DNA of 64,000 nucleotides from Phoenix dactylifera. Its lineage: Eukaryota > Streptophyta > Magnoliopsida > Arecales > Arecaceae. A program made the position numbers and the translations under genes. Numbering within the stretch: position 1 is the first letter of the stretch; each line of letters begins with the position of its first letter. The notes below the pieces were generated by a model, which was not told the origin of the DNA, searched no databases, and worked only from the letters and a program-made list of their open reading frames with translations. The stretch lies in assembly GCF_009389715.1 (NCBI RefSeq), contig NC_052399.1, forward strand, positions 29,583,146 to 29,647,145. Direction: 5' to 3'. Positions 6,651 through 64,000 of the stretch are shown here, in pieces.

Positions 6651-36944
<30,294 letters not shown>

Positions 36945-43974: not shown

Positions 43975-45813
43975 ATGTCCTCCATTTCTCCCGCCCTCCC
44001 GAAGCTCCAATGCAGCTCCTTCTCCTCCGACCAACGAGCCCTCTCCCTCCTCCTCCAGGGCCCCGTCAACCCCACCCACCTCCCCCAAATCCACGCCCGA
44101 ATCTTCCGTCTCGGCGCCCACCACGACAACCTCATCGCCACACGCCTCATCGGACGCCTTCCCGCCCCCCTTGCCCTCCGCATTCTCTGCCTTCTCGATA
44201 AGCCCAGCATCTTCCCGTTTAACGCCGCCATCCGTGTCCTCTCCGATGCCGGTCTCCCCCTCCCTGCCCTCTCCCTCTTCAAGTCCCTCATGCTCCGCTC
44301 CCTTTCCCCCAATGATTTCACCTTCTCGTTCCTCCTCAAGGCCTGCACATCCTCCAAAGACGCTTACCACGTCCAGCAAATCCATTCCCATGTCGTCAAA
44401 ACAGGGTTCGGTTCGAATTCTTATGTCCCCAATGGGCTTCTCTCTGCCTATGTAAAGGGTGCTGGGGATGTTGTATCGGCGCATAGATTGTTTGATGAAA
44501 TGCCGGAGAGAAAGTTGGTTTGTTCCTGGACATGTTTGATTGCTGGATATGCTCAATCTGGGAGGTCGGAGGAAGCTCTGAAGCTTTTTCTGAGAATGGT
44601 CAAGGGGAATATGAAGTTGGAGGATGACACCATGGTAAGCACCCTGTCTGCATGTTCAAATCTCAAGACTGTAGATCTTGAGAAGTGGGTGGATATTTTC
44701 ATGGAATTTGGTACTAGTATTCATAAGTTTTCATGTGATTCAGTCAACACTGTTCTTATTTATCTGTATGGAAGGTGGGGGAAGATTGAGACAGGCAGAG
44801 AATTATTTGATAGGATGATGGGGAGAGGAAGGGATAATATAAGCATTGTGGCATGGAATGCCATGATCGGTGGGTATGTCCAAAACAGTCTGCCGATTGA
44901 GGCTTTGGATCTTTTTCATAAAATGCTTTCTATTTCGAGACCCAAACCTAACCATGTTACGATTGTTAGCATGCTCTCAGCTTGTGCTTTAGTGGGTGAT
45001 TTGGAACTTGGGAGATGGGCTCATGAATATGTGAAATTCAATGGTCGTAAAGGGGTTCTCGAATCAAATAGGATTCTAGCAACTGCTTTCATAGACATGT
45101 ATTCCAAGTGTGGGAGTTTGGAGGAGGCTAAGAAGGTCTTCGATGGAATGGCCATGAAGGATGTCGTCTCTCTCAATGCCATGATCATGGGTCTTGCCAC
45201 AAATGGTCAAGGAGAAGTGGTTCTGAGGCTCTTCTCTGAAATGGAGAAGTCTGGTGTCCAACCCAATGATGGGACTTTCTTGGGTTTACTGTGTGCATGC
45301 ACCCATTCAGGATTGGTGGATGAAGGGCGCATGCTCTTCAAAGATATGTACCGGAAGTATTTAGTCACACCAAGTTTAGACCATTATGCCTCTTTTGTCA
45401 ATCTCCTTGCACGGGCCAGCCATGTTGAAGAGGCTCTTGAGGTTGTTAAGAGCATGCCAATTCAGCCTAATGGCCTTGTGTGGGGAGCATTGCTAGGAGC
45501 ATGCTTGGTTCATTCTAGAGTTGACATCGCTCAAGATGTAGCAAGAAAGCTTGTTGATGTGGACCCAGAAAACTCTGCTGGTTATGTTATGTTGTCTAAT
45601 GCATATGCAAGCCATCATTGTTGGGGCAACATTGTCGAGTTGAGAGAATTGATGAAGATGAAAGGCGTCAGAAAGCAACCAGGTTGCAGTTGGATCAGTG
45701 TCAATGGAATTGTGCATGAATTTCAAGTGGGATCTATATCACACCCTCAATTAGAGAAGTTGCACTGTTTATTGGCTTCTTTGTCTCAGGAAATGAGATT
45801 GATGGGCTGTTAG
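43975..45813 (+). CDS. Pentatricopeptide repeat protein, PLS class with E domain, intronless
   Basis: 612 residues in one exon, the usual PPR gene form. Degenerate 31-36 residue helical repeats begin at about residue 80 (FPFNAAIRVLSDAGLPLPALSLFK, split here as FPFNAAIRVLSD and AGLPLPALSLFK). Clear repeats include SWTCLIAGYAQSGRSEEALK, AWNAMIGGYVQNSLPIEALD, TAFIDMYSKCGSLEEAKKVF and SLNAMIMGLATNGQGE. The C-terminus has the E/E+ signature (VWGALLGACLVHSR, GYVMLSNAYAS, KQPGCSWISV), then ends without a DYW deaminase domain. E-class proteins bind organellar RNA and usually serve C-to-U editing with a separate deaminase, so that role is inferred. The first 400 bases are very C-rich and the rest is not, a monocot-like gradient. 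ATG 43975 is chosen as the first in-frame Met. Organelle and RNA target unknown. Confidence 0.92.
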   Translation: MSSISPALPKLQCSSFSSDQRALSLLLQGPVNPTHLPQIHARIFRLGAHHDNLIATRLIGRLPAPLALRILCLLDKPSIFPFNAAIRVLSDAGLPLPALSLFKSLMLRSLSPNDFTFSFLLKACTSSKDAYHVQQIHSHVVKTGFGSNSYVPNGLLSAYVKGAGDVVSAHRLFDEMPERKLVCSWTCLIAGYAQSGRSEEALKLFLRMVKGNMKLEDDTMVSTLSACSNLKTVDLEKWVDIFMEFGTSIHKFSCDSVNTVLIYLYGRWGKIETGRELFDRMMGRGRDNISIVAWNAMIGGYVQNSLPIEALDLFHKMLSISRPKPNHVTIVSMLSACALVGDLELGRWAHEYVKFNGRKGVLESNRILATAFIDMYSKCGSLEEAKKVFDGMAMKDVVSLNAMIMGLATNGQGEVVLRLFSEMEKSGVQPNDGTFLGLLCACTHSGLVDEGRMLFKDMYRKYLVTPSLDHYASFVNLLARASHVEEALEVVKSMPIQPNGLVWGALLGACLVHSRVDIAQDVARKLVDVDPENSAGYVMLSNAYASHHCWGNIVELRELMKMKGVRKQPGCSWISVNGIVHEFQVGSISHPQLEKLHCLLASLSQEMRLMGC

Positions 45814-46714
45814 ATAGAAGAGTCTACCGAAGGTTGGGCACAAATGAGCATAGAAGTGGATTCACAGGGATGCTATCAACTCCAAAAGGAGTCTCCTTGG
45901 TGTGAGTTCTGTTCATGCAACTCATTCTACTTTAAAGTTCTTTTATTGTTAAATTTTTGCCATGCTTTGCAAAAATTACAACCTTTTTTCTTTTTGGATA
46001 AAAAATTTTAGGCCAACAAAATTCCTTTTGAACATCAACTTGCTTTTGAGAAAAGCTGGATTCCTAGACCCTGCAAATGCAAAGCTTCCTAACGATTATC
46101 TATATCCCACCGGCTTAGAGCCAAAATCCTCAGGGTATGTCAGTTTTGAGAATACTTATTCTGTGTATTTGCAAACTTAACTTAGTCTTATTTCTTCATT
46201 CATGGATCAGTGATTTGTGTGGATAAATGGCAATTCCTGATTAGATCAGGCTGATGCCAAGTTACTGTACCTTTTGACTGTACTGTTATTGCGTTTATCT
46301 AATAAAGTGCAGAATTTATTAGTCATAACTTTTAATTGATTGTTCCAAGTAAGCAGCCACAGAGAGACATGACATGAAAATAAGAGTTCACACTTTTATT
46401 ACCACCAAATTTTTGGAAGATTGGGATTTCTCACTCGTATGATGTTCACCAAATTTAAGTTTCATAAGGAATAGTACTAATCTTTTGACTTTTTTCTTGG
46501 TATTTTGCAATTTATTCCAAACTTTATGATTGATTGCTCATTTGCAGCCTTACACATGATAACATTTTGTAACATATATTGACGGCCGGGTCTTATTACA
46601 AATAATTTTAAGAATTCATTATTAATTGAAATTTTTAAAAATTTTGGTGGTGTAAGTGTAAATATTGAAGTGTTTCTGCAATTTTCTCCCAAATTTTTAT
46701 GCTGCTTAACTTCC
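45814..46714. other. Intergenic, PPR 3' flank with an inverted-repeat element
   Basis: Contains the probable PPR 3' UTR. Between 46391 and 46663 an inverted pair, ACACTTTTATTACCACCAAA and TTTTGGTGGTGTAAGTGT, bounds about 270 bp without an ORF and may be a small MITE. Nothing else is recognisable. Confidence 0.4.
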
Positions 46715-47900
46715 ACATAAAAACGTGTGCGGACTTTGGGAACCTGGAATCCATCGGCGCATAAAATTCTTATGCAAGGAAACATATCCGCATAGAACAA
46801 ATATGCTGCTTATAAGTCACCAGAAACCGGAGAGTGCATAAACGTATTATGCGGATATTCATCAGCATAGCAAAAATATAAAGACAAGAGCCACCTGGTA
46901 TCATTTCCCGCATAAAATTCTTCTGCCGATAAAGATCCGCATAGCAATAATAATATGAGCACTCTTGTAAACTATAGTCAACGGTTGCATAAACGTTTTA
47001 CGCGGCCATTATGCCGCATACGAAATATATGCAGACACAAGCCGCATAATTGGATGGCGGTGCATAAACTTTCTATGGGGAAGCAATCCGCATAGAAAAA
47101 AATAGATGCGCACGTAGAATTAATATGCTGACATACAACCGCATAAAAGGTTATGCGTACAATATCATCTGCATAGCCATAATATGAGGACACCAGTCTA
47201 CTCGTATTGATTCGCGCATAACCTTCTTATGCGGAAGAGAAACCGCATAGCAAAGATCATTTGCGGACAACCATCAGACGACGTGTGCATAAACGTTATA
47301 CGCGGACAATTATGCCGCATAGGAACTGTATGCAGACATAAGGCACAATATGGAATACGGTGCATAACCGCATAATACAAATATGAGGAAACGGGCAATT
47401 AAAAATAGTTGCGCATAAAATTAATTCGCTGGCATGACCCGCATAAATTATTATATGCGGATAAAGAAATATAAGCAATTGTTATGCATAACCGTCTTAT
47501 GCGGACGATGTTTCCGCATAAACATAATATAAGGACAGCACTCAAATCGGAACCTTTTGTGCATAAAAGCCTTATGCGGCCCAGGAACCGCATAGACAAG
47601 ATAATATGCGGAGGCGAATATATGAAGACGACGAGCGCATAATATTTATATGCGGAATTGCACCGCATATGTAGAAGTGCGGACACGTGGCGAATGTTAG
47701 ATCTTAGTGCATAGAATGTTTGTGCGGATGAGTGGCCACATAGGAAAAATACGAGGACATTCACTTTCCATTTAAATAACCGCCCGCATAAAATGCTTAT
47801 GTTGACTTACGCCCACATAAAAACGTATGCGGCCACTAGACAACTGAGGAGAGTGCGTAGCATAAAATGCTTTATGCTGTTATAACGTCCGCATAATCAA
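46715..47900. repeat. Array of about 16 diverged 75-bp units with hairpin cores
   Basis: The motif (G/C)GCATAAA-N4-6-TTATGCGG recurs at about 46758, 46836, 46910, 46986, 47061, 47141, 47215, 47287, 47361, 47413, 47486, 47561, 47637, 47709, 47785 and 47857, that is every 72-80 bases with one short step. Its two halves (GCATAA and TTATGC) are complementary. Eight or so bases later most units have ATCCGCATAG and then AATATG(C)GGACA. The remaining 20-25 bases of each unit vary freely. No ORF of substance crosses it. It could be a minisatellite or the subterminal array of a CACTA-like DNA transposon. No CACTA terminus was found. Confidence 0.85.
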
Positions 47901-47914
47901 AATATAATCAGCGG

Positions 47915-48110
47915 GACGTGGAAAGTGACGGAGCGTGCCGGCACGGGAGACCACGTGCGCTCAGCGCGGCGGCCGCCAGCTTTGGGCGCGGGGGCCACGT
48001 GCCGACTTATGAGACCGACACGACGGTTGATGGCGCGGAGGCTTCCATTCTCATGTCCGGACGCGACATTCGAGAAGCAGAGCGGCTTCCGGGTGCTTGG
48101 GATTACGAGT
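47915..48110. other. GC-rich CpG-dense patch with two CACGTG boxes
   Basis: Directly after the hairpin array comes about 190 bp of GC-rich, CpG-dense sequence containing CCACGTGCGC and GCCACGTGCC (G-box cores), then ordinary AT-rich DNA resumes. Two overlapping ORFs of 88 and 131 codons start here but match nothing I recognise. It may be the end of the element carrying the array, or a promoter-like patch. Confidence 0.4.
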
Positions 48111-48845
48111 TACGTTTCTTTGATGACTCCTTCGCCCTTCCCTTTTGTTTTTTTCTCTTTTCTTTACTTTTATGTAAGGTGGTGGAAATAATCTCTTTAC
48201 TATTAGCACGGAAATCTTGTGCTATCTGTGGACATCTACTACTGATTACGCTATATACGTCTCCGCACAAGCTTGTTATGAAAAAGGGAATAATCACTGT
48301 CATCCTTCCCTGAGTCAGGATCCATTAGAAAAGATGTATGTATTAATTATCATCCGCATGCATGGAGGCCTCTTTTGTTAAATACTCTTTACTAAATTAT
48401 CTCATGCAGAAATTTTTGAAATTCAAACACATGTTTAGCTTCCATGCTTTTTGCATTATATAGAGAAATATAGTGATCTATAGATGTATATAATTATTCT
48501 AAACATGTAGGTTGTTATCTATTAATAAAGCATACTAATGATGGTTTACCAAACAAAAAGCTATGTCAATGATTTGTTGCTACATCCTTTCTCATATATA
48601 TGAATCATATATCCTAAAGATAGAGAAAATATTTAGACACATCATTTCATCCTAGAATAAAGTTAAACTTTTAAATATTTTTTTTAAAATATATTTTAAA
48701 ATATGGACTGAATTGTTTTTTATTGATACATTGCAACAAAAAAAAAGTTTATTATAAATATGCAGGTTGTTACCCATTGAGAAAGTATAGCAATGATGGT
48801 TTACCCAAGTCAAAAAAAAAAAAGAAAAAAAAAAAAGCAATGGTT

Positions 48846-48885
<40 letters not shown>

Positions 48886-48903
48886 GTAAAACGGCTACTC
48901 ATT

Positions 48904-51900
48904 TCATATAAATCTAACGTGAGTACAACCAGCCATATCACGAGAAAGTAAAAGATACAAAGGATGAGGGGCATCTGAAGCCTCCGTCCAGAGAAAATCT
49001 CCAGAGTGCCGAGCAACAAAGGAGGCGACCCAGTCAGCGGACCTGTTCGCCTCCCTAAACACGTGACCAATCTGACAATCACCCATCAGCTGGATCATCC
49101 TGCGGGTCTCTCGGATGAGAGGGTGACCATCCCCAAACCGATCCGCCCCTCGGAGCCAGTCAATGACCACGGATGAGTCTCCCTCGAGGTAGACCCGCTC
49201 CACCCCCAAAACCTGCCATACATAAGATATGCCCTCCCACGCAGCCCGTAGCTCTGCACCGACCACAGTAAGACCTGGCGCCCGCCTACCACCTGCTGCT
49301 ATCATCCTGCCCAGATGGTCCCTGATCACAAACCCAACACCTCCAGTCACACCATCCAGAGACCGACTCCCGTCGAAGTTTACTTTGAGATAGCCAAGGG
49401 GTGGGGGTACCCAAGAAACATGGGCAAACCGGGGCGCTGAAACAGCGTAAGGGGTACCCCAGATGTCCCTGGCAAACCCAGAAGAAAACCCAACGGAAGC
49501 CGCAATAACCTCCCTCGCGTGTAGCAACGCTCTATCCGCCACCGTCCTCGGATGCGACCTCCTCCCCTCAAACAGACCGGCATTCCTATCCAACCAGATA
49601 TAGTAGGACAAGTATGCCACAAAAATCCCTGCCTCGACCAATCTAGGACTCCGCATGGATGCTCTCATCAGCTGAATCATATCCTGCACAGAAACCACCG
49701 AGTCGGGTAATGGAACCGGTGACCTCCTCCATATCTCCCGGGCTCTGGGACACTGCAAAAGGACATGCTCGGTCGACTCCTCGATAACCGTACACTCCTC
49801 ACAGCACTGAGACATCATCATGCCACGTCGCACTAACAAGCTCCTCGTTGGAAGGCAACCCCAGGCCACCTTCCAAATAAATAACGCCACCCGAGATGAA
49901 TCCGCAGCCTCCATATCCAACCAACCTCAATCTGGCGTGCTGGCTCCGACCTGACCAAGGCAAGAAGATCTCTAGCTCGAATCCGCGACCGTCCGGACGG
50001 CAACCACACTAGTCTGTCAACCCCTCCCCCAGAGGGAACCGGAAGAGCTAGAACCGACTCCGCCAGCTGCTCCCCAAAAACCTCCTGAATCAACTCCACT
50101 CTCCACCGTCCCCCCTCTGAAGACAACAAGTCACTGACCCTGGAGCCCGCTAATCTCGCCGAGTCCACCATAGTCGGCAACCGACAAAGCGGCAGCTCCG
50201 TCACCCAACTATCCTCCAGCACATCAACAGAGCTTCCGTCACCTATGATCCATCTGATCTCCGGAAGCACCAGCATGGCTCTAGCACACATCTCCCTCCA
50301 AACCGGGGAATGGTGCCGACCACCCCGCACCCCGGGAACCAAGTCGCCATACTTGGCCCTCATCAATGAGGACCACAAGCTCTCAGGCTCGAGCACAAAT
50401 CTCGCCGCATGTCTAGCCACTAAGGCCTCCCGCCTCGCTACCAGAGACTGCACCCCCAAACCTCCAAGACTAGTCGGCTGGCATACAACATCCCAAGCCA
50501 TCAGGTGGACCCCACCTCTACCACTGTGCCTTCCCCAGATAAAGTTCCTAAATAACTGCTCCAGGGACCTCAGAACAGTAACTGGAATAATGGCATTGGA
50601 AAGCAGATAAATGGGAATAGAGGAAAGAACTGAACGAACCAGAGTGATCCTACCCATCATAGATAAAGAGTGCATCTGCCAACCCTCCAATCTGCGCCTG
50701 ATACTGAGCTCCAAGAAAGTACAATCCCCGCGTCGTAACCGCTGGCCCGAAAGAGGGACCCCCAAATAAACCATCTTGCCCACCTGCGCACCCACTCCCA
50801 GGATCTCCAATATAGGGCGCCTCACCGCCTCCTTGGTCTTCGGGCTAAAAGTAACAGCAGACTTGGCCAAATTGACCTGCTGACCCGAAGCTGCACAATA
50901 ATCCCGAAGAATCTGACAAATAACCCGGGCCGCCTGCCGCGACGACCTGGCAAGAAGCAAGCAGTCATCAGCAAAAAGCAGGTGGGATATCGGGGCAGCC
51001 CCCACCGTCGGTCTATAAACCTCCAACTCCTGAGCCGCCACTGCCTGGTGTAGGAGTCTGGACAACGCATCTGCACAGAGAATGAATAAAAGAGGAGATA
51101 GAGGGCAGCCCTGACGTAACCCCCCCGAAGACACAAAGAAGTGGGACGGTGAGCCATTCACCAAGATAGCAAAAGAAGGAACACGGACACAGCCCATCAC
51201 CCACCTGATCCAAGTCTCATGAAAACCAAATGCCTGCAGGGACTGCTGCAAAAAATCCCACCGAACCCTATCATAGGCCCTCTCCATATCAAGCTTGATC
51301 CCCATCAAGCTCCTCCTCATCGGAGCCCTGTCAAGATCAAACATAAACTCCTGGGCAATCATCACATTATCCGAGATACTCCGCCCCTCCAAAAAAGCTC
51401 CCTGCTCCGGACTAATAAGCCTAGGAAGAACCTCCCTCAACCTAGCGGCAAGAATCCTCGCTATAGCCTTGTACAGAGTAGTACAAAGGCTAATCGGGAC
51501 GAAAATGGCTCGGCTCCGTAGCATCCTGCCGCTTCGGTATCAGAGTGATGAAGGTCCTCTGCCAGTCTGCTGCCATCACTGCTGTACTGAAGAACTGCTG
51601 TATGGCTGCCGTCACATCGCGCCCAACAACCATCCAATATCTCTGAAAAAACAAGGGTGGGAAGCCATCCGGCCCAGGGGCCTTGTCCCCCTTGAGGGAC
51701 CACACCGCCTCTCTAATCTCCCTCTCCGTCACCGATCTAATCAGAGCTACTGTCTCCTCCTGTGACACCCTGCCCACTGGCGGAGGTATAGCTGCTAGGC
51801 TCCCAACAGTAGACTGCTCTGTCCACCTGGCCCTGAAAAAACTCTCCATAATCCTCTGGATCATCTCCGGATCCTCCGACAGCTGCCCCTCCTCATCCCG

Positions 51901-53043
51901 GAGGACTCTAATCCTGTTCTGGTGCCTCCTGATAACCGTCGCCTGATGAAAAAACCTCGTATTTCTGTCCCCCTCCACAATCCACTGTACCCTCGATTTC
52001 TGTCTCCAGAATGTCTCCTGCTGTCTGAGTAGACCGTCATGCAGGGCCAATAAGGATCGGAGGTCCCCCAGCTCCTCCTCCGCAAGGCCCCCCTGATCCT
52101 CCTGGGCGTGTAACCTGGCTATGGCCCCCTCTGACTCCTCTATCCTCCTGAGGATATCTCCCACCTCCTCACGATTCCACCTCCTCAGACGTCTTCTTGT
52201 TAGCTCCAATCTCCGGGACACCCGATACATCGCATCTCCTCTCACCTGAGCACTCCATGCCTCCCTCACCACCTCCCATGACCGTGGATAACAGAGCCAA
52301 ATTTTTTCAAATCTAAAAGGGGCATGAACTGGAAAGTAGGAATCTGTACTCACCAGTATTGGATTGTGGTCCGACGCAATCCTGGGCAGATGGCTCACAT
52401 GATGGTCCGGAAAGGTCTGAATCCACCCAGCGGTCGCGCAGGCTCTATCAAGTCACTCCCATACTCTAGCTTGGCCCTGCTGATTGTTGCACCATGTGAA
52501 CTTAGACCCAGAAAACCCCAAGTCAATCAATCCATTCGAGGTCAGAAAGTCCTGGAACTCCATGACCTTCCTCTCAAATGTGAAAGGCCTCCCCCCCCTC
52601 TTCTCCTGAGGATCAACAATACAGTTAAAATCACCAGCCATCAACATAGGGTACCCCTGACTAATCAACTGAGAGGCCTCATCCCACAGTATCCGTCTCT
52701 CCCTGAAGTCAGTACTGGCATACACCGCAGAAAGCACCCATGAACCTCCACTACCCTCCGAGATCACCATAACCACCTCCTGAGAACACACATGGAACAC
52801 ATCCAAACTACAAGCACCCTGCATCCACGTAACAATGATACCACCCGACAAACCGCTAGACTCCACAGCATAAAAGCCCCACGATCGAGGTATCGCCCTC
52901 CTGGCCTTCTGAAGGCTCCTCCCAGATAAACGGGTCTCAAGCAGTACACAAATCTCCGGTCTATGCAACTGCACAATCCTCCGAAAGGCCGGGGCAAAAG
53001 AAGGCTTCCCCGCGCCACGACAGTTCCATAAGATAACCTTCAT
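48904..53043 (-). pseudogene. LINE 1 ORF2: endonuclease, reverse transcriptase, RNase H; disabled
   Basis: Endonuclease at the N-terminus (MKVILWNCRGAGKPSF, VLLETRLSG, MAGDFNCIVDPQEKRGG, then ASDHNPILV); reverse transcriptase with GLRQGCPLSPLLF and the catalytic FADD at 50964-50975; a Cys/His stretch (CCEECTVIEESTEHVLLQC); and a C-terminal RNase H with VNFDGS, GAELRAAWEG, LEGDSS and REANRSADWVA, so its acidic residues are kept. An in-frame TGA at 52453-52455 lies where a relative would have Arg (GARVWE then LDRACA), consistent with CGA to TGA decay. Frames also change near 51.50 kb (SHFRP to ISLCTTLYK) and near 49.89 kb (before VALFIWKVAWGC). Confidence 0.9.
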
Positions 53044-55278
53044 TGGGCACCCAAGGATGCATCACAACCCCCTACCCCGGGATTGCAATCATGGAACACC
53101 ACCTCCTCCATAGCACCAACCTTCTCCAACTTTGCAAGACTCGCCCCTTTAGCTGCTGCCAACAGCTGATTCACAATACCCTGCCGATCCATCCCGAAGC
53201 CCGGTTGTGCTAATTGGCACGGAGAGTCCCCGGCAACTTCACCATTTTCCACAGGCCCCTCCAACAGCCCACCTCCTGGAAGAGACTTGGTACCGCCCAC
53301 AACTTCACTGGCGACCTGTTTCCCGGCACCCAGCATCTTCACAACACCAGAGAGACCTCCCTCCTCCCGAGCCAGGTGAGCCGGAAAAGCCTGTGAAGAC
53401 GTTTTGGAGCTGCCGGCTCGGTTCACCTGCTCACTACTGTCACCGGACTCCCGGTTCCCCACTCGATCCAACCGACCCTCCTTGCCGGTCGCCTCGACCG
53501 GAGCCATCATCCCCAATTCCGAGAGCTTCGCCGCAGCCGAGATAGCACGATTTAGCTTCGTCGAAGGGGCCATCACACCACGCCGGACATGCTCGCCACC
53601 ACCCCTAGACTCACACTCCGCCCGCGGAGGTCGGAGACGAGCCGCCGAGAGGGGAGGAGGGGAGCTCTTGCTCCTGCGTCGGAAGTCAAGCTCCGACCGC
53701 GCCTTCGCCGTTGGCAGAGGACGGGTCCCCCCGACGGAGAAGACCGGCCCTTTCAAACCCTTGCCTCCCGTACCCAGAGCCCGACTTGGGCTTCTGGAGC
53801 GCTTCCTCGGGCTCGGGCCCAATCCGTCGAGGCACTGCATCGCTGAGGGGCCTGGCCTGTCCACAGCCCGGTCCGACACACCATCCAGCCCACAAACACC
53901 CTGGCCCGCCTCCAAGTTAAGACACGGGTTGAGTCGGCTCGGACCAGCGCCATCGACCTGGGTGGGTTGACTCGGGCCCGCCCTACCCTTGCCCGCCCCG
54001 GCCGCCGTGACGTCCTTCTCCGGAGTCCTCCGCCGGGCAACCTTCGATGGCATCTGCCAAGCTTCCAGGTCGATCGGGGAGACCGAAGAACCCGACCCAT
54101 CCCCCATTCCACCCTTACCGGAACAAGGAGGAGTGGCCGTCGAGATCGGCCGGGACCCGGACCCAGCCATCTCCTTCTTCCGCGGCATCTTTTTGGCCGG
54201 CCGTTGTTGCCAAATGCGATTGGTAACCAACCACGGGCCAAAGGCCGATGGTTCCTCCGGGACAGGACCACCGGTATTCACTTCAACCTCCGGGAGATCC
54301 GCCCCGATACCTTCCTTCTCCTTCCCTCGGTCCACTGCCGGTTCCGCCTCGCCACCCCACCGAGGACGGATAACCGCACTCCGACGACGAGTGCCCAATC
54401 CGCCCACACCTCGAGCAAGGAGCAGGGAGGTTCTCATAGATAAACCCCTGCCAAAAGGTCTCCTCGGCACCCCCATATTTCCCCCTAACCAGGATACCCG
54501 GCTTGAGAGGATTCGAAACATTTAGCTCCACCTTCACCCTAGCAAAGCCATACCGTCCCCCCTGCTCCGTGAAGCCGTCCACGGCCAAGGGATTTCCGGC
54601 GCTGGCCGCTATCCTAAGTATGGTCTCCCTTCTCCAATAATCCAGGGGCAGTCGTGGTAGACGCAACCAGACGACCACCCGATCAATACCCCCAACGCCG
54701 GGCACAAAATTGGGTCGCCAACGCTCCATTGCCAGAAGTTGGCCTGCCACCGACCATGGACCGTTCTTCAGAGCGGCCTCACGATCCTCCTCCTTGGCGA
54801 ACCGGACGGCGATGAAGCCATCCATCAACGAGAAACACTCCACGTTATAGTCCAAACGACCTACCCGTTTGAACTCCCTGGCCACCCAGTCAATCGGAAC
54901 AGGCCTCCCCAAGCTCCTCACAATGACGGTCGTGCTTTGCCATTCCGCTCGACTCCCCTCCAGCTCTTCCTCAGGAACGTCCACCACCTCGGCCGACGTA
55001 CTCCGCAGCATTTCCAAAACCCGAGGGGGCATCCGGTGACTCGTCCACGCCGACTGCCGAGGGACTCCCTTCGCAACCTCCGCCCAGGAGCGAGACTTCG
55101 GTGCAGTCCCGACACCCCGCGAAGCCTGACCACCCTCCTTCCCCGTCTCCGGCTGAGCAGCGTCCCCCCCACCAGCCTCCATAGTTTCCGGCTGAACAGT
55201 GACCCCTCCCAGGTGTTTGGGGAAAAGCCCCAACCACCGCACGGAGTTTGGCGCACCTGGGCACACTTCCCGAGACAC
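53040..55278 (-). pseudogene. LINE 1 ORF1 (DUF4283 and zinc knuckle), frameshifted
   Basis: ORF1 of plant L1 elements encodes an RNA-binding protein of the ribonucleoprotein particle. From ATG at 55276-55278 the first 331 codons hold a DUF4283-like domain (EWQSTTVIVRSLGRP ... RFAKEEDREAALKNGPWSV) and a CCHC knuckle CSRCGRIGHSSSEC (Cx2Cx4Hx4C). The frame then leaves ORF1 near 54.39 kb and the remaining about 450 codons continue in another frame with GPWLVTNRIWQQRPAKK and a long low-complexity basic tail (RKRSRSPSRA). The stop TGA (53040-53042) overlaps the ORF2 start ATG by the sequence ATGA. Confidence 0.85.
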
Positions 55279-55440
55279 TCACTCTCTCTCCTCACTCACT
55301 CACTCTCTCTCCTCCGAAGCACTCTCTCTCCTCACTAAAGCAATGGTTAGTTGCTACGACCTTTTATCTTACATATGAAGTATCCTAAAGTTAGATAAAA
55401 TATTTGAACACGTCACCTCCTTCTAGAATAAAGTTAAATA

Positions 55441-56446
55441 ACCAAATAAAGTTAAACAACTAGTTGCTGGCTTACGGAGAAATATATGTTTTCAAAGTAC
55501 TCAGCCATTGACGCTACCAAGTCAATATCATAAAATCTCCACCTACAATCCATGATATAATAATATTTCTTGTCAATCAAGCTAGCTGCCTTCGCTTGAT
55601 CCATAAATCACCATTCTTGAGCTCTCCTTTCATCCTGTAATTTTAGATGAAGGTTGTCAAACAAAGACCTTTTTTATATATTAAAAATGTAAATTATTTG
55701 CAATCACTGAATGCTAGAAACTTGCTTGTCCTCTGATGTGACAAGCCTTTTTAATGATTAAAGTAAATTATTCAATTACCTTTCACTCACATGATCAAAG
55801 ATGAGTGTGTGGAGGCAATGATAGATGATTAAAAATATAAGTTGCTTTAAACTTGTTTATTGAACAACCTATATTAAAACAACACTATAACTATTTTATT
55901 CCACCAATCATCCCCATCTTTATCATTCTGAAATATATTTAATTGAACCACACATTACAAGCCTCACCTAACTCCCCTAAATCTGCTATTATTAAAAACT
56001 ATTTTTTATATATACCATATTATTTTGCACCAATTAAAACTTAGCACAAAATTACAATGCATTCTTCCTCGCATAATAGGCCGTAAAGCCATACTATTCA
56101 GCTCCTACACATCAGCTCTAGAGCCATCGCGAATAAAATGCTGTAACTGAGGTCAATGAAGATGCAGATTAGGTAACTGCTATTTTGAAGTATTTTGTGG
56201 GTTGGAAAAAAGGGTTTAGGACACTCTAAAATTTATTATTTTTTAATTTTATTAGAAGTATCGTATGGAGCACCTCATTTTAGTAAAAAAAAAAAAAAAA
56301 AAGAAATTGTAGTTAGATTCTTTTCTTGCATCTAATCCTAAGTTATCCAGCCTAATGGACCTGGAATTAACTATTTGTACCACCGCCCTCGCCAAAAAAA
56401 TAACGTAAAGCTAATGGAAAAATCTCCATGGGCAATTTAGTCATTC
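55441..56446. other. Intergenic AT-rich DNA between LINE 1 and LINE 2
   Basis: About 1 kb without a recognisable gene. It includes an 18-base poly-A run near 56286-56302. Confidence 0.6.
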
Positions 56447-58095
56447 TACCGCTCCTCCTCCTTTTTTTTTTTTTTTTTTTTTTGATGAAACGGGCATTTC
56501 ATACAACTCGGGTACGAATACACCCAATAGAGTCAGAAGACAAAATGCTCCGAAGAGCTCCGGGCAACTCATACTCGCCTGACCATAGGGTACCTCCTGA
56601 GTGGCTCGCAACAAATGCCGCCACCCAATCGGCCGCCCCATTGGCCTCGCGATATACATGCATAGCCTGGAAACTAATCTCCCTCACCATATCCCAAATA
56701 TCACGGATCAGAGGGTGAACACCCCCATGGCTGCACGGGCCCTTTCGGACCCAACTGATCACAGTAGCGGAGTCACCCTCTAACAGGACTGAAGTCGCCC
56801 GAAGCACACGCCGCACGTAGCACATACCCATCCAGGCTGCCCGCAGCTCTGCCCCAGGGACCGAAGTATCAAAAATCTGACATCCCCCTGCCACCAACAC
56901 ACCAGAGCTCGGCCCCCTGATAACAAAACCAGCCCCTCCTCTCCTACCTCCATCCAGGACTGAGCCATCAAAATTGACCTTGAGGAAACTCGGGGGTGGG
57001 GGCTCCCAGGTAAAAAATACCCTATGTGAAGCTGCCGAAGCAGAGTGGGGGCCCCAGATGTCCCGAGCTATCAAAGGTCTATGGGCTAAGTCTACATGAA
57101 TAATCTCTGCTGCCTGAGCACTGGCCCGCTCCATCACAAAACGCGGTGCCGGCCTACCCTCGCCAAAGACACGGGCATTCCTGGCCAGCCATATCTGATA
57201 AGCTGTACAAGCTGCCCGAATAGCCATGCTGCGCATCAGAGGGGTGCCCGCCCATCGCTGAACCCACTCCAGAAAACAGTCCCTCCGACTCCATGCATCC
57301 TCCGGAATCCCAGTCAGCCTCCAAGCATCCCGCGCCCGAGCGCAATGGAAAAGGGCATGCTCCACTGACTCGTCCTCCCCACAATCCGGACATAGAGGAG
57401 AGAGGCTCACTCCTCGTCTGCTCAGCACTGAACACGTCGGCACGCACTCCCAAGCCACCTTCCAGAGGAAAAGAGCAGTCCTCTGGTGTAGCCCCACCCT
57501 CCACACCCAGCCACAATCTAGGCCTGGCACTGACTCCCGCTGAATGACTCGGGAGACATCACCAACCCCGACACTCGCTCTGCAAGTAGTACTCCAGACC
57601 CTGACATCCGGACCTGCAGAAACCGGAATGGGAAGTGCCCGAACTCGCTCTGCCAAATGCTCTCCGAACAGCTGGTCAAGCCTAGCACCATCCCACTCTG
57701 CCGCCCCCGGCCTGAGAAGGTCGGAAACCCGGAGTCCCTCTGCCCCCGATCCACTAAACATCGTCGGCCATAATCTCAATGGGAGCGCGTCCACCCACGG
57801 GTCCTCAGTCACATCAATACTCCGGCCGTCGCCAATCAACCATCTAGTATGAGCCAGGGCCATCGGCAAGTGCCGCCCAATCTCTCGCCATATAAAGGAA
57901 AACCTACGGCCCCCTACCGCCTGTGCAGTAAGTCCCGCACCACCGTATCGAGCTATCATGATCCGGCTCCAAAAGCCCTGTGGCTCCAAAACGACCTGCA
58001 CGGCCCGTCGTGCCAGTAAAGCCTCGCGCCGCACCTGGAGTGACTGCACCCCTAAGCCACCCTCCCGCAGTGACAGACATACCGCTCCTCCTCCT
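56447..58095 (-). mobile_element. LINE 2: young 5'-truncated L1-type LINE upstream of RSH
   Basis: The element proper is 56463-58079 (1,617 bp, minus strand), ending in a poly-A tail seen as T from 56463 to about 56483. A perfect 16-bp target duplication TACCGCTCCTCCTCCT lies at 56447-56462 and 58080-58095. The 5' end is cut inside the C-terminal part of ORF2, as is usual for LINEs. Removing it joins ATTC|TACCGCTCCTCCTCCT|GGCCTTCC, the original RSH 5' flank. It sits 384 bp upstream of the RSH start codon, in antisense orientation. Confidence 0.95.
56499..58079 (-). CDS. LINE 2 ORF2 C-terminal part (zinc-binding RVT and RNase H), open
   Basis: An unbroken frame of about 526 codons inside the LINE holds the region after the RT core (SLREGGLGVQSLQVRREAL), a Cys/His zinc-binding-RVT-like part (CPDCGEDESVEHALFHC) and an RNase H domain (VNFDGSVLDGG, GAELRAAWMGM, LEGDSATVISW, REANGAADWVA). 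No stop or shift breaks it, which fits recent insertion. The frame continues 24 codons past the LINE edge into host DNA (to 58151), so the first ATG of the open frame is not LINE sequence. The RT catalytic core is absent, so it is not autonomous. Confidence 0.85.
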   Translation of the reverse strand, partial: CLSLREGGLGVQSLQVRREALLARRAVQVVLEPQGFWSRIMIARYGGAGLTAQAVGGRRFSFIWREIGRHLPMALAHTRWLIGDGRSIDVTEDPWVDALPLRLWPTMFSGSGAEGLRVSDLLRPGAAEWDGARLDQLFGEHLAERVRALPIPVSAGPDVRVWSTTCRASVGVGDVSRVIQRESVPGLDCGWVWRVGLHQRTALFLWKVAWECVPTCSVLSRRGVSLSPLCPDCGEDESVEHALFHCARARDAWRLTGIPEDAWSRRDCFLEWVQRWAGTPLMRSMAIRAACTAYQIWLARNARVFGEGRPAPRFVMERASAQAAEIIHVDLAHRPLIARDIWGPHSASAASHRVFFTWEPPPPSFLKVNFDGSVLDGGRRGGAGFVIRGPSSGVLVAGGCQIFDTSVPGAELRAAWMGMCYVRRVLRATSVLLEGDSATVISWVRKGPCSHGGVHPLIRDIWDMVREISFQAMHVYREANGAADWVAAFVASHSGGTLWSGEYELPGALRSILSSDSIGCIRTRVV

Positions 58096-58463
58096 GGCCT
58101 TCCAACCAATCCAACTGAGACGCGCAAGATTTTTCTCCTACGACAAAACAAACCAACAGCGAAAAGAAAAAAAAGAAGAGAGAAAAAAAAATGTCCTCCA
58201 CCGTCTTTTCACTGGCTCTCTGACTTCTTTCCCCGTCCCCACGGCCCCCTTTCTTCCCTCCCTATTTCCGCGAACCTAGGGTTTCTTCGATAGATCTCCT
58301 TGATTCTAGATTCCCAACTCCCGATCCCATCAAGCTCCCTCCTTTCCCCCTAATATCCGATCGTCCCCCTAAAATTACCCCGATCTCGCTTCCCAGGTGC
58401 CGGAATAGGGTTTTTGATCTCGGATTCGAGGGGAGAAAGCCGAGACATTAGGGGTCGGCGTCC
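58096..58463 (+). promoter_or_regulatory. RSH 5' flank and leader
   Basis: Contains an A-rich stretch (about 58155-58195), then pyrimidine-rich sequence and AACCTAGGGTTTCTTCG, a motif style common in plant 5' leaders. With LINE 2 directly upstream, only about 370 bp of original proximal flank remain next to the gene. No TATA box is certain. Confidence 0.35.
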
Positions 58464-61400
58464 ATGTCGGTGCCGGCGATCGCGCTCTACGCGAGCCCCC
58501 CGAGCGGCGTCTGCCCGACCTCCCACCACTCCTGCCAGATCGCCTCCTCCCACGGCCCCTCCGACTTCGACCTCAACCCCCGCCCGCCATCCTCCTCCTC
58601 ATCCTCCTCAGCCCAGAAGCCGATCTCCGGCGGCCTTTCCTGCCTATTCTCCTCCCCGACCTCCCGCCATGCCGCCGCCACCTCTTCTTCCTCGAGCTTT
58701 ACCGGCGCCGATGAGCTCGGCTCGCTCTGGCACGACAGATCCGAGGACCTCAGCAGCTCCTTTTGCTACTCTTCCTACCCCTCGTCGTCCCTCAAGTGCC
58801 GGGACCAGAGCCCGGTGTCGGTTTTCCAGGGTCCGGTGTCGTGCAGCGGGAGCGGCTCCGCTAGAAGCCCGTCGTTGGTGAGAACCACGCGCGAGTGGAG
58901 CAGCGGCGACTGGAGGGTGGGGAAAGATAGAATTTTTAGCGGGTTTGTTAGAAACGCGTTGGGCTCTTGTCTTGATTTCAATTCCCCGAGTTTATCTCGA
59001 CCGGGAGGTGGTGGATTCAATGTGGAAGAGTTGGATTTTAATTTGGAAGAGAGTCTGCACGAGGAGGCGTCTGCTTGCGAGCCGTATGCCAGAGACTTGC
59101 TCGCCAGGGCTCAGTCAAGACATAAAATTTTCTATGAGGAATTTGTGGTGAAGGCTTTCTACAAAGCCGAAGAGGCTCACAGGGGGCAGGTGAATACAAA
59201 TATGGAAACTTTACCATTTGAATTGAAATGCGATCTTCTTAGTTTCTTTAGGCTAGTTTGTTTTTGATACATGCAATGAAGTTCTGGCATATATTCTGAA
59301 TTATTGGTGACTCGGTTGTTATTTGAAGATGTCGAATATATTTTAAGTTCGTGAATTGAGCTGGGTTTCTTTTGGCTTGTCTATTAGATGAGGGTGAGCG
59401 GAGATCCTTATCTGCAACATTGTGCGGAGACGGCTGTTTTATTAGCGAAGATTGGTGCTAATGCTACAGTAGTCGCTGCAGGGCTTTTACATGATACATT
59501 TGATGATTCTTTTGTGGATTATGCATCTATTCTCCAAATATTCGGAGCTGGTGTAGCTGATCTGGTCCAAGGGGTAATTCTCTCTTTTTTTTTCAATGCT
59601 TTAGTTCTTCCAGAGTATTGTGTAAAACTGAGTGATGAGTTTTTAATATGATACTTGCAAAAGTTAGTTGGTGCAGCTTTCACACACTCTCCTGCTGCAC
59701 CATTGGTTACTAGGTCATTCTCTTGTCCCATCATCTTTCTGAAAGAGTAAAACAATCAAAGTATAGCACTTAATGTAGATCATATGTTCAAATGGGCAAC
59801 TATTATATTGTCTTTGTTCATCATTTTTCTTTCACCACTGGACATTCGGTTATACTTATATAAGTTTAAACAAAACTCTGATATAACCAATAGAAGTTTA
59901 AACAAAACTTTGATCTTGTTATTTTTGAATATCACTTCATGTGATAGTTTGTCATTTACTAGACTGAACATTGGAAAACATTTGCTGTGTTTTTCAGATT
60001 AGAGGAGGAACTTGGTTTTGCTTGATTCTGTTATAGTTCTCTTATTTGGTGGAGTAATCTGGCATTTATGTGTTTCTATTCATTTTTGTGCTTTTCTGTT
60101 GTTGATATTTACACTTAACAAGTGTTTATTGTATTGAGCATCATCGACTGGCATCATGCTATGAGATGCCTGCATGGTTACACTGGTCTCTGTAGTTTGT
60201 TGACCATGACTTTTTTTGGGGGGGATTAATAATACAAGATAAATTTAACTTCAATTTAGCATAATATCTCATGGACCCAGCTTCTAATATTTATAAGCTA
60301 CACAGACATGTCCAATAATTCACCACTAAAGAGGCATGTCCAGAATTTTATATCGTCCTTTTTCTTAAGGTAGAGAAAAGCTTGTATTCAATGGGCTGTG
60401 CATCTGGTGGTTTACCTTCTCTAATACCCTTCAACCACCTGAACCCTGATAAAGGCAGGATTTGGACCCAGGTCTCTGGTATGTAACCACTGAAAGACTT
60501 TATCAGCAGACAGAGCTGTTCCTGTTATTTGTTTCCTTCACAGGTGCTATCATTATCTGATTGTTGAATACAGAAGATTTTTCCTTATTAGGTATTAGCT
60601 CCTTCAATTGGATTTTCTATAGCTTTCTTTCAGTTAAACTACATGGATTTTCATTTTAAGGTTTTGCATAAGTGCATAATAAGACTGTGAGAGGCATGTT
60701 GTTTTTGTTTTCTGATTATAAAAATGGCCATTGCATGTTATATGTTGTGTTTTGGAGGAAGACATCAGAAAAAACAAAATTACCTGAAGAGTTTTAACAT
60801 TTTTTAAAAGTCTGTTTCCTTTTATCTTTTTGGTGTTTTATTCAATAGGCTGGTACTTTTGTATGTAGAGGCAACCGTAGCATCCATAACTCAGACATAA
60901 GCTCTGAAGACTAAAATTTGAAATGCTGTTTGGCGTTTTATGCAGGTCTCGAAATTGAGCCACTTAAGCCAGCTTGCTCGTGATAACAATACTGCAAGTA
61001 AAACTGTTGAGGCTGACCGGTTGCACACAATGTTTCTTGCAATGGCAGATGCCAGAGCAGTTCTTATAAAGCTAGCAGACAGACTGCATAACATGATGAC
61101 ATTGGAGGCATTACCTATGGTTAAACAACAGAGATTTGCGAAGGAGACCTTGGAGATTTTTGTTCCTTTGGCCAGTAGATTGGGAATCTCAAGTTGGAAG
61201 GAGCAGCTTGAGAATTTGTGCTTTAAGCATCTCCATCCAGAGCAACACAAAGAGCTATTCTCCAAATTTGTCAAGTCCTTCGATGAAGCAAAGATCTCAT
61301 CTGCCATTGCAAAACTTGAAAAAGCTCTTGAGGATGAAGGTGTTTCTTTTCATGCTTTATCTGGGAGGCACAAGGGCTTGTACAGTGTTTACTCCAAGAT

Positions 61401-62489
61401 GCTGAAGTACGTCCTTCCCCCTTTTTGTATAATCATATGTTAAACTGAATACATATGTCCAATCTGAACTAAAATTCATTGGCTCACATATACAATGCCA
61501 AATTTTTAATAAGGCTAATTAGGTTGATGCACCAAAACTTCAGGAAGAAGCTGACCATGGATGAGATCCATGACATTCATGCGTTGCGTTTGATTGTTGA
61601 TAATGAAGAAGATTGTTACGCAGCTCTGACTGTTGTTCATCGATTATGGCCTGAAGTTCTTGGAAGGTTCAAAGACTACATCACTCATCCCAAATTTAAT
61701 GGGTACGTCAACGACAAACTTAGGTAGTGTGACTAAATTTTTATGCGAATTAGTGCTGATTGTCGTCTGCAGGTACCGATCTTTGCACACGGTTGTTCTG
61801 GGTAAAGACATGCTCCCTTTGGAAGTTCAGATCCGAACAAAGGAGATGCATCTACAAGCAGAATATGGAATTGCTGCTCATTGGAGATACAAGGAAGGTG
61901 ATTGTAAGCACTCTTCATTTGTGCTCCAAATGGTGGAATGGGCAAGATGGGTGGTTACTTGGCAATGCGAGACAATGAACGATGATCGGACTTCATCCGT
62001 AGGCGACTCCAGCCTCATTAGGCCTCCCTGCCCATTTCCTTTCCATTCTGATGACTGCCCTTATTCATATACAAGCCAGTGTGACTATGATGGACCCATT
62101 TTCATCATCATCCTGGAATATGAGAAGGTGAGTTGAATTTTTCGTATGCGATTGTGAAAACCTAATTACTATTATTCAGATACCTACATTCTGATGTTTG
62201 TGTGTGATTTCAGATGACTGTGCAGGAGTTTCCAGCAAACTCAACTGTAATGGATTTGTTGGAGAGAGTCGGGGGACGGAGCTTAAGATGGTCTCCTTCC
62301 AGTTTCCCTCTCAAGGAGGACTTGAGGCCGAGACTGAATCATGAGCCAGTGAGCAACCCTAATCAGAAGCTGGAGATGGGGGATGTTGTTGAGCTGACAC
62401 CATCGATACCTGACAAGTCGTTGACAGAGTATAGGGAGGAAATCCAGCGCATGTATGAACGAGGATTATCTCAAGCTGGCGTGGTTTGA
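58464..62489 (+). CDS. Chloroplast RelA/SpoT homologue (ppGpp synthetase/hydrolase), RSH2/RSH3 type
   Basis: Makes and probably degrades (p)ppGpp in plastids. Exons: 58464-59189, 59388-59573, 60946-61406, 61544-61702, 61773-62127, 62214-62489; they sum to 2,163 nt, or 720 residues, close to Arabidopsis RSH2/RSH3. The N-terminus ([15 protein letters not shown]..., Ser-rich) looks like a transit peptide. The HD hydrolase domain has GDPYLQHC and LLHDTFDD (His277-Asp278). The synthetase domain has [41 protein letters not shown] (about 505-517, with the glycine that is replaced in RSH1-type proteins), and [19 protein letters not shown]. No complete TGS-ACT region is present, as expected for this clade. 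All junctions are GT-AG and in frame. LINE insertions flank it on both sides. Confidence 0.93.
60380..60525 (-). mobile_element. tRNA-derived SINE remnant in RSH intron 2
   Basis: On the minus strand it has GCTGATAAAGTC near the head (about 60499-60510) and a B-box-like GGTCCAAATCC (plus-strand 60458-60468), then CCTGCCTTTA. Spacing and flanking words (AAAGTCTTT...GACCTG...TCCTGCC) match the SINE at 2.9-3.0 kb, so the two are probably one family. No clear target duplication. Confidence 0.4.
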
Positions 62490-62817
62490 GAAGCTGACCG
62501 ACACCCATGCCTAACATGAATTAGTCCATTGATTCATTGTATGTATGAACTAATTGTAGGGACATCCACTCCCATTGCAATACGGAAGCTTGGAATGAAA
62601 TGAGGTCCAAGCAGGTTGTTTAGATCTCAATATAGCAGTTAATGAAGCTTCCTAAATTTGTTCCCCAGCTCCTTTCCCTTTCTCCCAATTGGGTCTTCTC
62701 CTGCATCAGAAAGAAATAATCAAATGATCTATGATGGCAGTAACCCTGCGAAGGCACCATCAGATTCACATGAAGCTGACCTGTCACCAACTCCACTCTA
62801 TTTCAGGCTGTTATTGA
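62490..62817 (+). other. RSH 3' flank
   Basis: Probable 3' UTR of RSH, ending where LINE 3 begins. I see no canonical AATAAA. The LINE tail lies 328 bp after the stop codon, so it could fall inside or just past the native 3' UTR. Confidence 0.5.
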
Positions 62818-64000
62818 TTTTTTTTTTTTTCTGCGCTAAAATAGGTATTTTATATAGTACGTGTATAAATACATTCAATAAAATCAAAAAACAAAAGATC
62901 ATGGAGTGCTCGGAGTAACTCCTCCTCCTTGGCCTACATGGTACTCTCGGAATTGTTGGCCACATAGGTAGCCATTCAATCTGTAGCTCCATTAGCCTCT
63001 CTAAATACATGCATAGCTTGAAAGACCCTCCATCTCTAACCATCATCCAGATATTCCGAAGGGGTGGTCCATGCCAACACCCATCGGGCCTTCCTGGATT
63101 CAACTGATCATTGTGGTCGAGTCATCCTCTAAGATGATTGAGCTGGCCTCTAGCACTCGCCACGCATGTCGAAAACCCACTCAGGCAGTCCTCGGCTCCG
63201 CGTCGGGGACCGAGATGTCAAATAGCTAGCAGCCCCCTGCTGCCACCGCTCTGGAGTTCGAGTTCCTGATGATCAAATCTACACCTTCTCTCATGCCTCC
63301 CTCCTAGATGGATCTATCAAAGTTGACCTTGAGGAAGCTCGGGGGTGGGAGCTCCCAGGTGAAGAACACCATATGGGCAGTTGCATAAGCAGAATGGGAA
63401 CTCCAGATATCCTTAGCTGTCAAAGGCTTGTCTGAACCAATGTCATGACTGATCTCTGCAGCCTGCGCCCAGGCAGGCTCCACTACGAACCTCGGTGACA
63501 TGCTGCGCTCTCCAAAAACTCGAGCGTTCCTTGCCAGCTAGATCTAGTATGATGTATAAGTCGCTCTAATAGCCTTTCGGCGCATTCGTGGACTACCTGC
63601 CCACCGAATGGCCTGTAAGAACCGATCCCTCTGACTCCAAGCATCCGGTGGAGTCCCTGTGATCCGCTAAGTCTCCCTCGCCTTTGCACATTGGAATCAC
63701 ACATGGTCCACTGTCTCATCAACACTACACATCCTGCACTTTGGGAAAATTCTCAAGCTACATCTACTGAGTACCAAACTCGTTGGAAAACGCTTCCAGG
63801 CCACCTTCCATAAAAATAAAGCAAGCCTCGGGTGAAGTCTGAATCGCCAGATCTAAGCACACTCTGGCCCCAGCTCGTGCTCCTGCCAGAGGACTCGGAA
63901 GAGATCCCCCACCCTGACGTTGGTCCCACATGAAGAGCTCCAAACCCGGTTATCAGGTCTCGCGCACCCAAGAACCGAAAGAGACTGGACCTGCTCAGTA
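62818..64000 (-). mobile_element. LINE 3: decayed L1-type LINE running off the window
   Basis: Starts with a poly-A tail seen as 13 T (62818-62830), followed on the minus strand by RNase H and linker sequence of the LINE 2 family: VFFTWELPPPSFLKVNFDRS against VFFTWEPPPPSFLKVNFDGS in LINE 2, and AKDIWSSHSA against ARDIWGPHSA. Its frames are broken many times, so it is older than LINE 2. The 5' end and second target duplication are beyond 64000. Confidence 0.85.

Follow-up and report, generated by a model that had tools for sequence, protein, structure and literature searches.

The window, by which we mean the whole 64,000-nucleotide stretch of DNA that was analyzed, contains an orderly set of inverted half-sites, built around the 7-base motif CCGCATA, that is a real feature of this DNA. 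The motif is kept from one repeat unit to the next, and most of the sequence in between has little more similarity among units than is expected by chance. We put at roughly 0.55 the probability that this array is a protein-docking platform derived from a plant transposable element with unrecognizable ends, of which it would be the non-coding subterminal part or a region near the promoter. The analysis covered one copy of the array, in a window of 64,000 nucleotides, and that copy showed no ends in the ranges searched.

Organization and conservation of the array

The window has the appearance of nuclear DNA from a flowering plant. The array lies between a gene for a PPR protein and the first of the LINEs in this region. 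The main features of its neighborhood are as follows:

43975-45813, + strand: gene for a PPR protein with an E motif
46693-47935, no single strand: array of 62 CCGCATA-type half-sites (33 on +, 29 on -), mostly alternating in orientation
47905-48130, no single strand: GC-rich block (62.8%; CpG observed/expected 1.33) that adjoins the array and has no Pfam match in six frames
48904-55278, - strand: reading frames of an L1-type LINE (DUF4283, endonuclease, RVT_1, RVT_3)
about 56462-58208, - strand: second, shorter LINE with RVT_3 and zf-RVT domains
60922-61443, + strand: piece of an HD-domain protein

We take the HD-domain piece, by its sequence, to be a RelA/SpoT homologue (RSH), with a putative first exon that we place at 58464. 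The long LINE extends from 48848 to 55336 on the - strand, where it has a poly(A) tail (poly-T on the + strand) and the repeat AAAGCAATGGTTAG on both sides, and its insertion site appears to lie in the second of two copies of an AT-rich sequence of ~255 bp (48494/48749). A LINE fragment with similar RNase H-like reading frames was recognized by eye at ~62800-63950 on the - strand. To the left of the array, 46391-46658 is a possible small inverted-repeat element in which ACCACCAAATTTTT appears by eye to be matched by an inverted ACCACCAAAATTTTT; its ends read CACTT...AAGTG and its flanks TCA and TAA, with no matching duplication. Approximately three copies of a tandem repeat of 106-109 bp, with 88-89% matches, are present at 1777-2119.

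The array spans 46693 to approximately 47935, slightly wider than the 46715-47900 of the original prediction. Each half-site is composed of CCGCATA followed by A-rich bases, giving a core of 7 bp with a weak extension. A weight matrix identified 62 copies on both strands, 24 of them exact, a total that is circular to the extent that the matrix was trained on the array. Less circular, yet still based on a word chosen from the array, is the count of exact CCGCATA/TATGCGG, of which the array has 24 and the remainder of the window 3, with shuffles of the whole window giving 3.67. When one mismatch is allowed, motif density elsewhere in the window does not exceed 4 copies per 250 bp, and the array stands as a single cluster. 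Orientation alternates in 51 of the 61 steps between neighboring half-sites, a value well outside what 20,000 shuffles of orientation produced (mean 30.9, maximum 45). Steps from a + to a - half-site measure 13-15 bp in 21 of 25 cases, and those from - to + fall mostly into two classes, one of 14-17 bp (18 of 26) and one of 29-32 bp (7 of 26).

These steps are arranged in a period of ~75 bp. There are 16 units anchored on GCATA, running from 46759 to 47935 and preceded by a partial unit; 14 of the 15 intervals are 71-79 bp and the remaining one, from the shortened unit at 47441, is 45 bp. The proposal of about 16 units of ~75 bp was thus accurate. The proposal that each unit carries a single hairpin and a tail was right about the hairpin but not about there being only one, as a unit has two inverted pairs: a convergent pair is followed by a 15-bp step, a second convergent pair that is often decayed, and a long step of ~31 bp. 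This full pattern is matched exactly in only 3 units, and Tandem Repeats Finder does not include the array among its 21 rows for the window. Examples of duplicated, exact and irregular units are:

46987-47361, + strand: two units, beginning at 46987 and 47287 and separated by 300 bp (4 units), that a permissive gapped alignment shows as 86% alike; this method overstates similarity (shuffled spacers reach 0.71) and serves for this one example only
47216-47249, + strand: one of the three exact matches to the full pattern, with the convergent pair GCATAA-5-TTATGCGG followed by CCGCATA
47362-47485, + strand: irregular stretch in which the unit at 47362 is without most of its first pair and the unit at 47441 has only 45 bp

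Conservation was assessed column by column using 15 of the 16 GCATA anchors, that of the 45-bp unit at 47441 being excluded. The choice of anchor accounts for the conservation of columns 0-4, and the informative comparison is that of the second arm (offsets 11-18, unused for anchoring), which holds 0.50-1.38 bits per column, with the spacer (offsets -30 to -3 and 42 to 59), which holds 0.02-0.66 bits. Unit-by-unit alignments gave an identity between units of 0.83-0.88 at motif positions, a value somewhat inflated since the sites were selected for their resemblance to the motif. At non-motif positions identity for lags of 1-3 and 5-9 units was 0.56-0.62, versus 0.56-0.58 after shuffling (z -0.2 to 2.4). 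These positions fall within 2 SD of the shuffled null at 7 of 9 lags, and six of those seven lie slightly above it. The two exceptions are lag 4, where identity is 0.656 versus 0.568 after shuffling (z 4.5), and lag 8 (z 2.4). Thus, the motif is kept between units and the other positions are near chance similarity save for a trace at lags 4 and 8, so that divergence along the unit is not uniform and the conserved core and divergent spacer of the original prediction are both borne out. The array also matches itself at an offset of ~300 bp, in agreement with the lag-4 signal, and together these observations indicate that some of the array arose when four units were duplicated as a block. Consequently, the spacers are not wholly without memory of their origin.

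Sequence context and the origin of the array

The array is rich in CpG, with an observed/expected ratio of 1.41 across 46690-47905 and of 1.51 at its non-motif positions alone, and its flanks are CpG-poor (0.30 for 45900-46690 and 0.41 for 48130-48840). The GC-rich block at 47905-48130 may be the promoter or leader of the presumed element. However, a presumed host gene start at 58300-58900 is likewise rich in CpG (observed/expected 1.02) and in GC (63.6%), so a block of this type is no proof of an element.

A search for inverted ends bounded by duplications of 2-11 bp (left 46560-46764, right 47900-48499) gave no pair that stands out: the best score was 16.0, and among 21 other places in the window, 17 scored at least that high. 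Only this generic scan had a background, and the scans for TG...CA and CACT...AGTG ends were judged by eye. The window has 742 CACT...AGTG pairs in which 9 or more of 13 positions match. Among those spanning the array, a 3-bp duplication accompanies only two (at 26.8 and 36.5 kb; 9-10 of 13 matches), and no spanning pair within the window reaches at least 11 of 13. The CACTA words at 47834 (+ strand, inside the array) and 48475 (- strand) are isolated, with no such partner. Thus, no credible pair of CACTA-type terminal inverted repeats was found within the window and, with no credible ends, there is no credible 3-bp target-site duplication. Transposase_21 and Transposase_24 were both absent from the six frames of 45900-48848 and 55330-58500, although non-autonomous CACTA copies lack a transposase anyway; the first of these ranges has no Pfam domain in any frame and the second yielded LINE domains only. 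The earlier statement that no transposase reading frame or CACTA terminus is visible therefore holds in the ranges searched, apart from the partnerless CACTA words. Additionally, CTRRT words near the array showed no convincing hairpin by eye. Elsewhere in the window, a CACTT pair at 20660-27147 (11 of 13 matches, TTC duplication) was rejected as a candidate, as it has no transposase match and has tRNA-synthetase matches that suggest a host gene.

The failure to find element ends in the ranges searched is also what would be expected if the array were a host feature, either a local minisatellite or a regulatory or insulator array near the RSH-like gene, whose presumed start lies ~2.3 kb from the array once the two LINE insertions are discounted by subtraction, with the array upstream. 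We consider this origin unlikely. The G-box-like words within and beside the array, the GC- and CpG-rich presumed start of a host gene, the signs of block duplication and the restriction of the motif to a single cluster in the window are all in keeping with it. However, one 7-mer would not be retained on both strands of a neutral minisatellite whose spacers approach the shuffled null, and 62 sites are far above the usual count in host promoters.

Also unlikely is an origin in the promoter (U3) of a Sirevirus-like LTR retrotransposon, of which the array would be a palindrome cluster within a solo or broken LTR, with the palindromes and CpG island regulating transcription and possibly serving as small-RNA targets. 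A scan for TG...CA ends (left 46300-46764, right 47880-48847) gave six candidates with A/T-rich repeats of 5-6 bp and terminal matches of 2-3 bases. The only one with a duplication longer than 5 bp, 46666-47899, is also the nearest to the array, is flanked by the 6-bp repeat AAATAT and would fit the size of the array, which speaks for an LTR-like reading. Against this candidate, its right end cuts the last unit (47888-47907 matches 47513-47532 at 90%), its terminal match is 3 bases long and its duplication consists of A and T only. A scan of 46000-48848 for an initiator Met tRNA primer-binding site, allowing up to 2 mismatches, gave no match, although a solo LTR would lack such a site. The excerpted text of PMC2829016 reports 3-14 palindromic motifs in Sirevirus 3' LTRs, with a CGG-CCG core in 12 of 13 elements and CpG islands upstream of the TATA box, and the TATGCGG...CCGCATA of our array similarly presents clustered CGG...CCG in a CpG-rich stretch. 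For maize, an excess of small RNAs at Sirevirus-type palindrome clusters is mentioned, with reference to earlier work, in an excerpt of PMC10760457. However, CGG and CCG are 4-6 letters apart in the Sirevirus motifs, as counted from the table of PMC2829016, whereas the gap in divergent pairs of the array, calculated as the step minus 7, is mostly 7-10 bases. Half-sites in the array thus sit farther apart and in a lattice; the excerpted Sirevirus text describes no 75-bp lattice, and neither LTR ends nor a primer site was found in the ranges scanned.

We give a similarly low weight to an origin in another type of DNA transposon, for example a Mutator-like VANDAL element with a non-coding region of tandem repeats targeted by an anti-silencing protein. 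VANC proteins are described in an excerpt of PMC10398659 as binding short motifs in non-coding tandem repeats of VANDAL elements that expand, contract and diverge. The array resembles such targets in having tandem repeats around a short, presumably bound motif that change quickly, and its retention of CpG would fit a lasting loss of methylation. Against this, no generic inverted ends above background were found in the range scanned and no transposase domain, VANDAL-type or other, was detected by Pfam in 45900-48848 or 55330-58500. Furthermore, the array has inverted pairing, which the excerpted text of PMC10398659 does not state for VANC sites. A more speculative proposal, and one that we regard as a long shot, is that an undescribed family of plant elements encodes an anti-silencing or assembly protein for which the array serves as cis-target, and that this protein would multimerize along alternating inverted half-sites at steps of ~13-16 bp. 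Binding would then have preserved the sites and also held the stretch free of CG methylation, so that CpGs survived while the spacers were rewritten.

Folding and protein binding

Inverted motifs allow hairpins to form, and the original prediction raised selection for folding as an explanation of the conserved core. Both strands do fold better than their dinucleotide-shuffled versions (20 per strand; z -5.0 and -7.58), as measured over 46698-47660, which is 963 of the ~1240 bases. However, when the motif was kept and the rest shuffled (12 shuffles per strand) the real strands were no better than the shuffled ones (z 0.35 and 0.90), so the folding energy is explained by the motif itself. Pairing between the arms likewise gives no sign of being maintained. 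Among 24 convergent pairs, 39 core cells deviate from the motif, 2 of them on both arms, and 1 keeps pairing (null 1.49); among 18 divergent pairs the corresponding numbers are 22, 1 and 1 (null 0.55). There is thus no excess of compensatory changes over chance in either set, in a test on a 7-base core that has limited power as only 3 cells deviate on both arms. With many arms having two competing partners and no Rfam match at gathering scores, selection on RNA or DNA hairpins, such as microRNA-like or small-RNA precursors, is very improbable despite the folding of both strands, and the proposal of selection for folding is not upheld.

The lack of compensatory excess, together with a folding energy that is due to the motif, favors protein-binding sites over selection for folding, and each half-site seems to be conserved on account of its own sequence, as is expected of a site bound by protein. 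The preferred reading, that of a docking platform from a transposable element, can be given a mechanistic form that stays provisional. A putative binding protein would recognize ~7-9 bp, (T)CCGCATA(A), seated as inverted pairs. This protein may have been encoded by the element and have bound the half-sites as TNPA binds the subterminal repeats of Spm, in which case it would bring the ends of the element together, set the activity of the GC-rich block, or both. Half-sites would have been added through duplication of 75- and 300-bp blocks, with the spacers diverging while binding held the half-sites in place. The half-site and its spacing are defined well enough that they could be used to find the binding protein and to search plant genomes for the parent element. 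If the array is instead an ordinary decayed element end, then its interest is modest.

Comparison with known systems

A degenerate pattern derived from the plant unit, in which 21 bases were fixed and the octamer CCGCATAA was itself required, matched 67 loci, 6 of them viral and 61 in prokaryote stretches. Gaps of 6 and 4 bases are common to 62 of the 67, which suggests that they belong to a single kind of bacterial element in which this octamer is spaced differently. What look like the ends of these elements carry several half-sites of sequence CCGCATAA, in both orientations and at fixed steps, as in the following:

L052, 193-3656: bacterial element ended by CCGCATAA half-sites
L035, 703-4769: bacterial element ended by CCGCATAA half-sites
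L033, 3005-6662: bacterial element ended by CCGCATAA half-sites

Three adjacent Phage_integrase genes are present in L052 and L035, the two loci checked, and we presume that the elements may be of the recombinase-in-trio type, with three tyrosine recombinases. They share with the plant array a half-site in both orientations, but the three plant units that match exactly have gaps of 5 and 8-9 in place of 6 and 4, the bacterial elements have few sites per end and no array, and the bases flanking their half-sites differ. The plant array does not follow the fixed series of bacterial steps (11, 15 and 17 bp). We judged a link between the three-recombinase elements and the plant array to be coincidence, given the different geometry, the restriction of the loci to prokaryotes and viruses, and a pattern that demanded the octamer.

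The closest match in style is the subterminal repeats of CACTA (En/Spm) elements such as Tgmt*, and among the papers listed in our literature search nothing on similar arrays is closer than PMC2613891; the papers listed for the motif letters together with transposition were unrelated by title and the start of the abstract. According to excerpts of PMC2613891, beside which PMC8195511 is cited in our comparison with published systems, one end of the soybean element Tgmt* packs 24 subterminal repeats into 732 bp, enough for 12 possible stem-loops, whereas its other end has only 4, forming 2 stem-loops. The same excerpts state that CACTA motifs seem to combine a GC-rich and an AT-rich part, a split that fits the CCGC|ATAA of the array, and that TNPA is said to recognize the subterminal repeats of Spm, with a role as recognition sites still to be determined for the motifs compared. 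The array and Tgmt* have in common a short motif repeated in direct and inverted orientation, a possible series of stem-loops and putative binding by a TNPA-like protein. They differ in that the array has no CACTA ends, 3-bp duplication or transposase in the ranges searched, and has a regular unit of ~75 bp with two inverted pairs in each. Thus, where the original prediction likened the array to the repeated binding sites of CACTA subterminal regions, the anatomy fits, whereas membership in CACTA is not established because a search of the window for the ends that define these elements turned up no credible pair. By analogy, the array likely works like a CACTA-style binding array. If this reading holds, its 62 half-sites in 1.24 kb exceed both published counts with which we compared them, namely the 24 at one end of Tgmt* and the at most 14 palindromes of a Sirevirus 3' LTR, with the array being no denser than the Sirevirus clusters.
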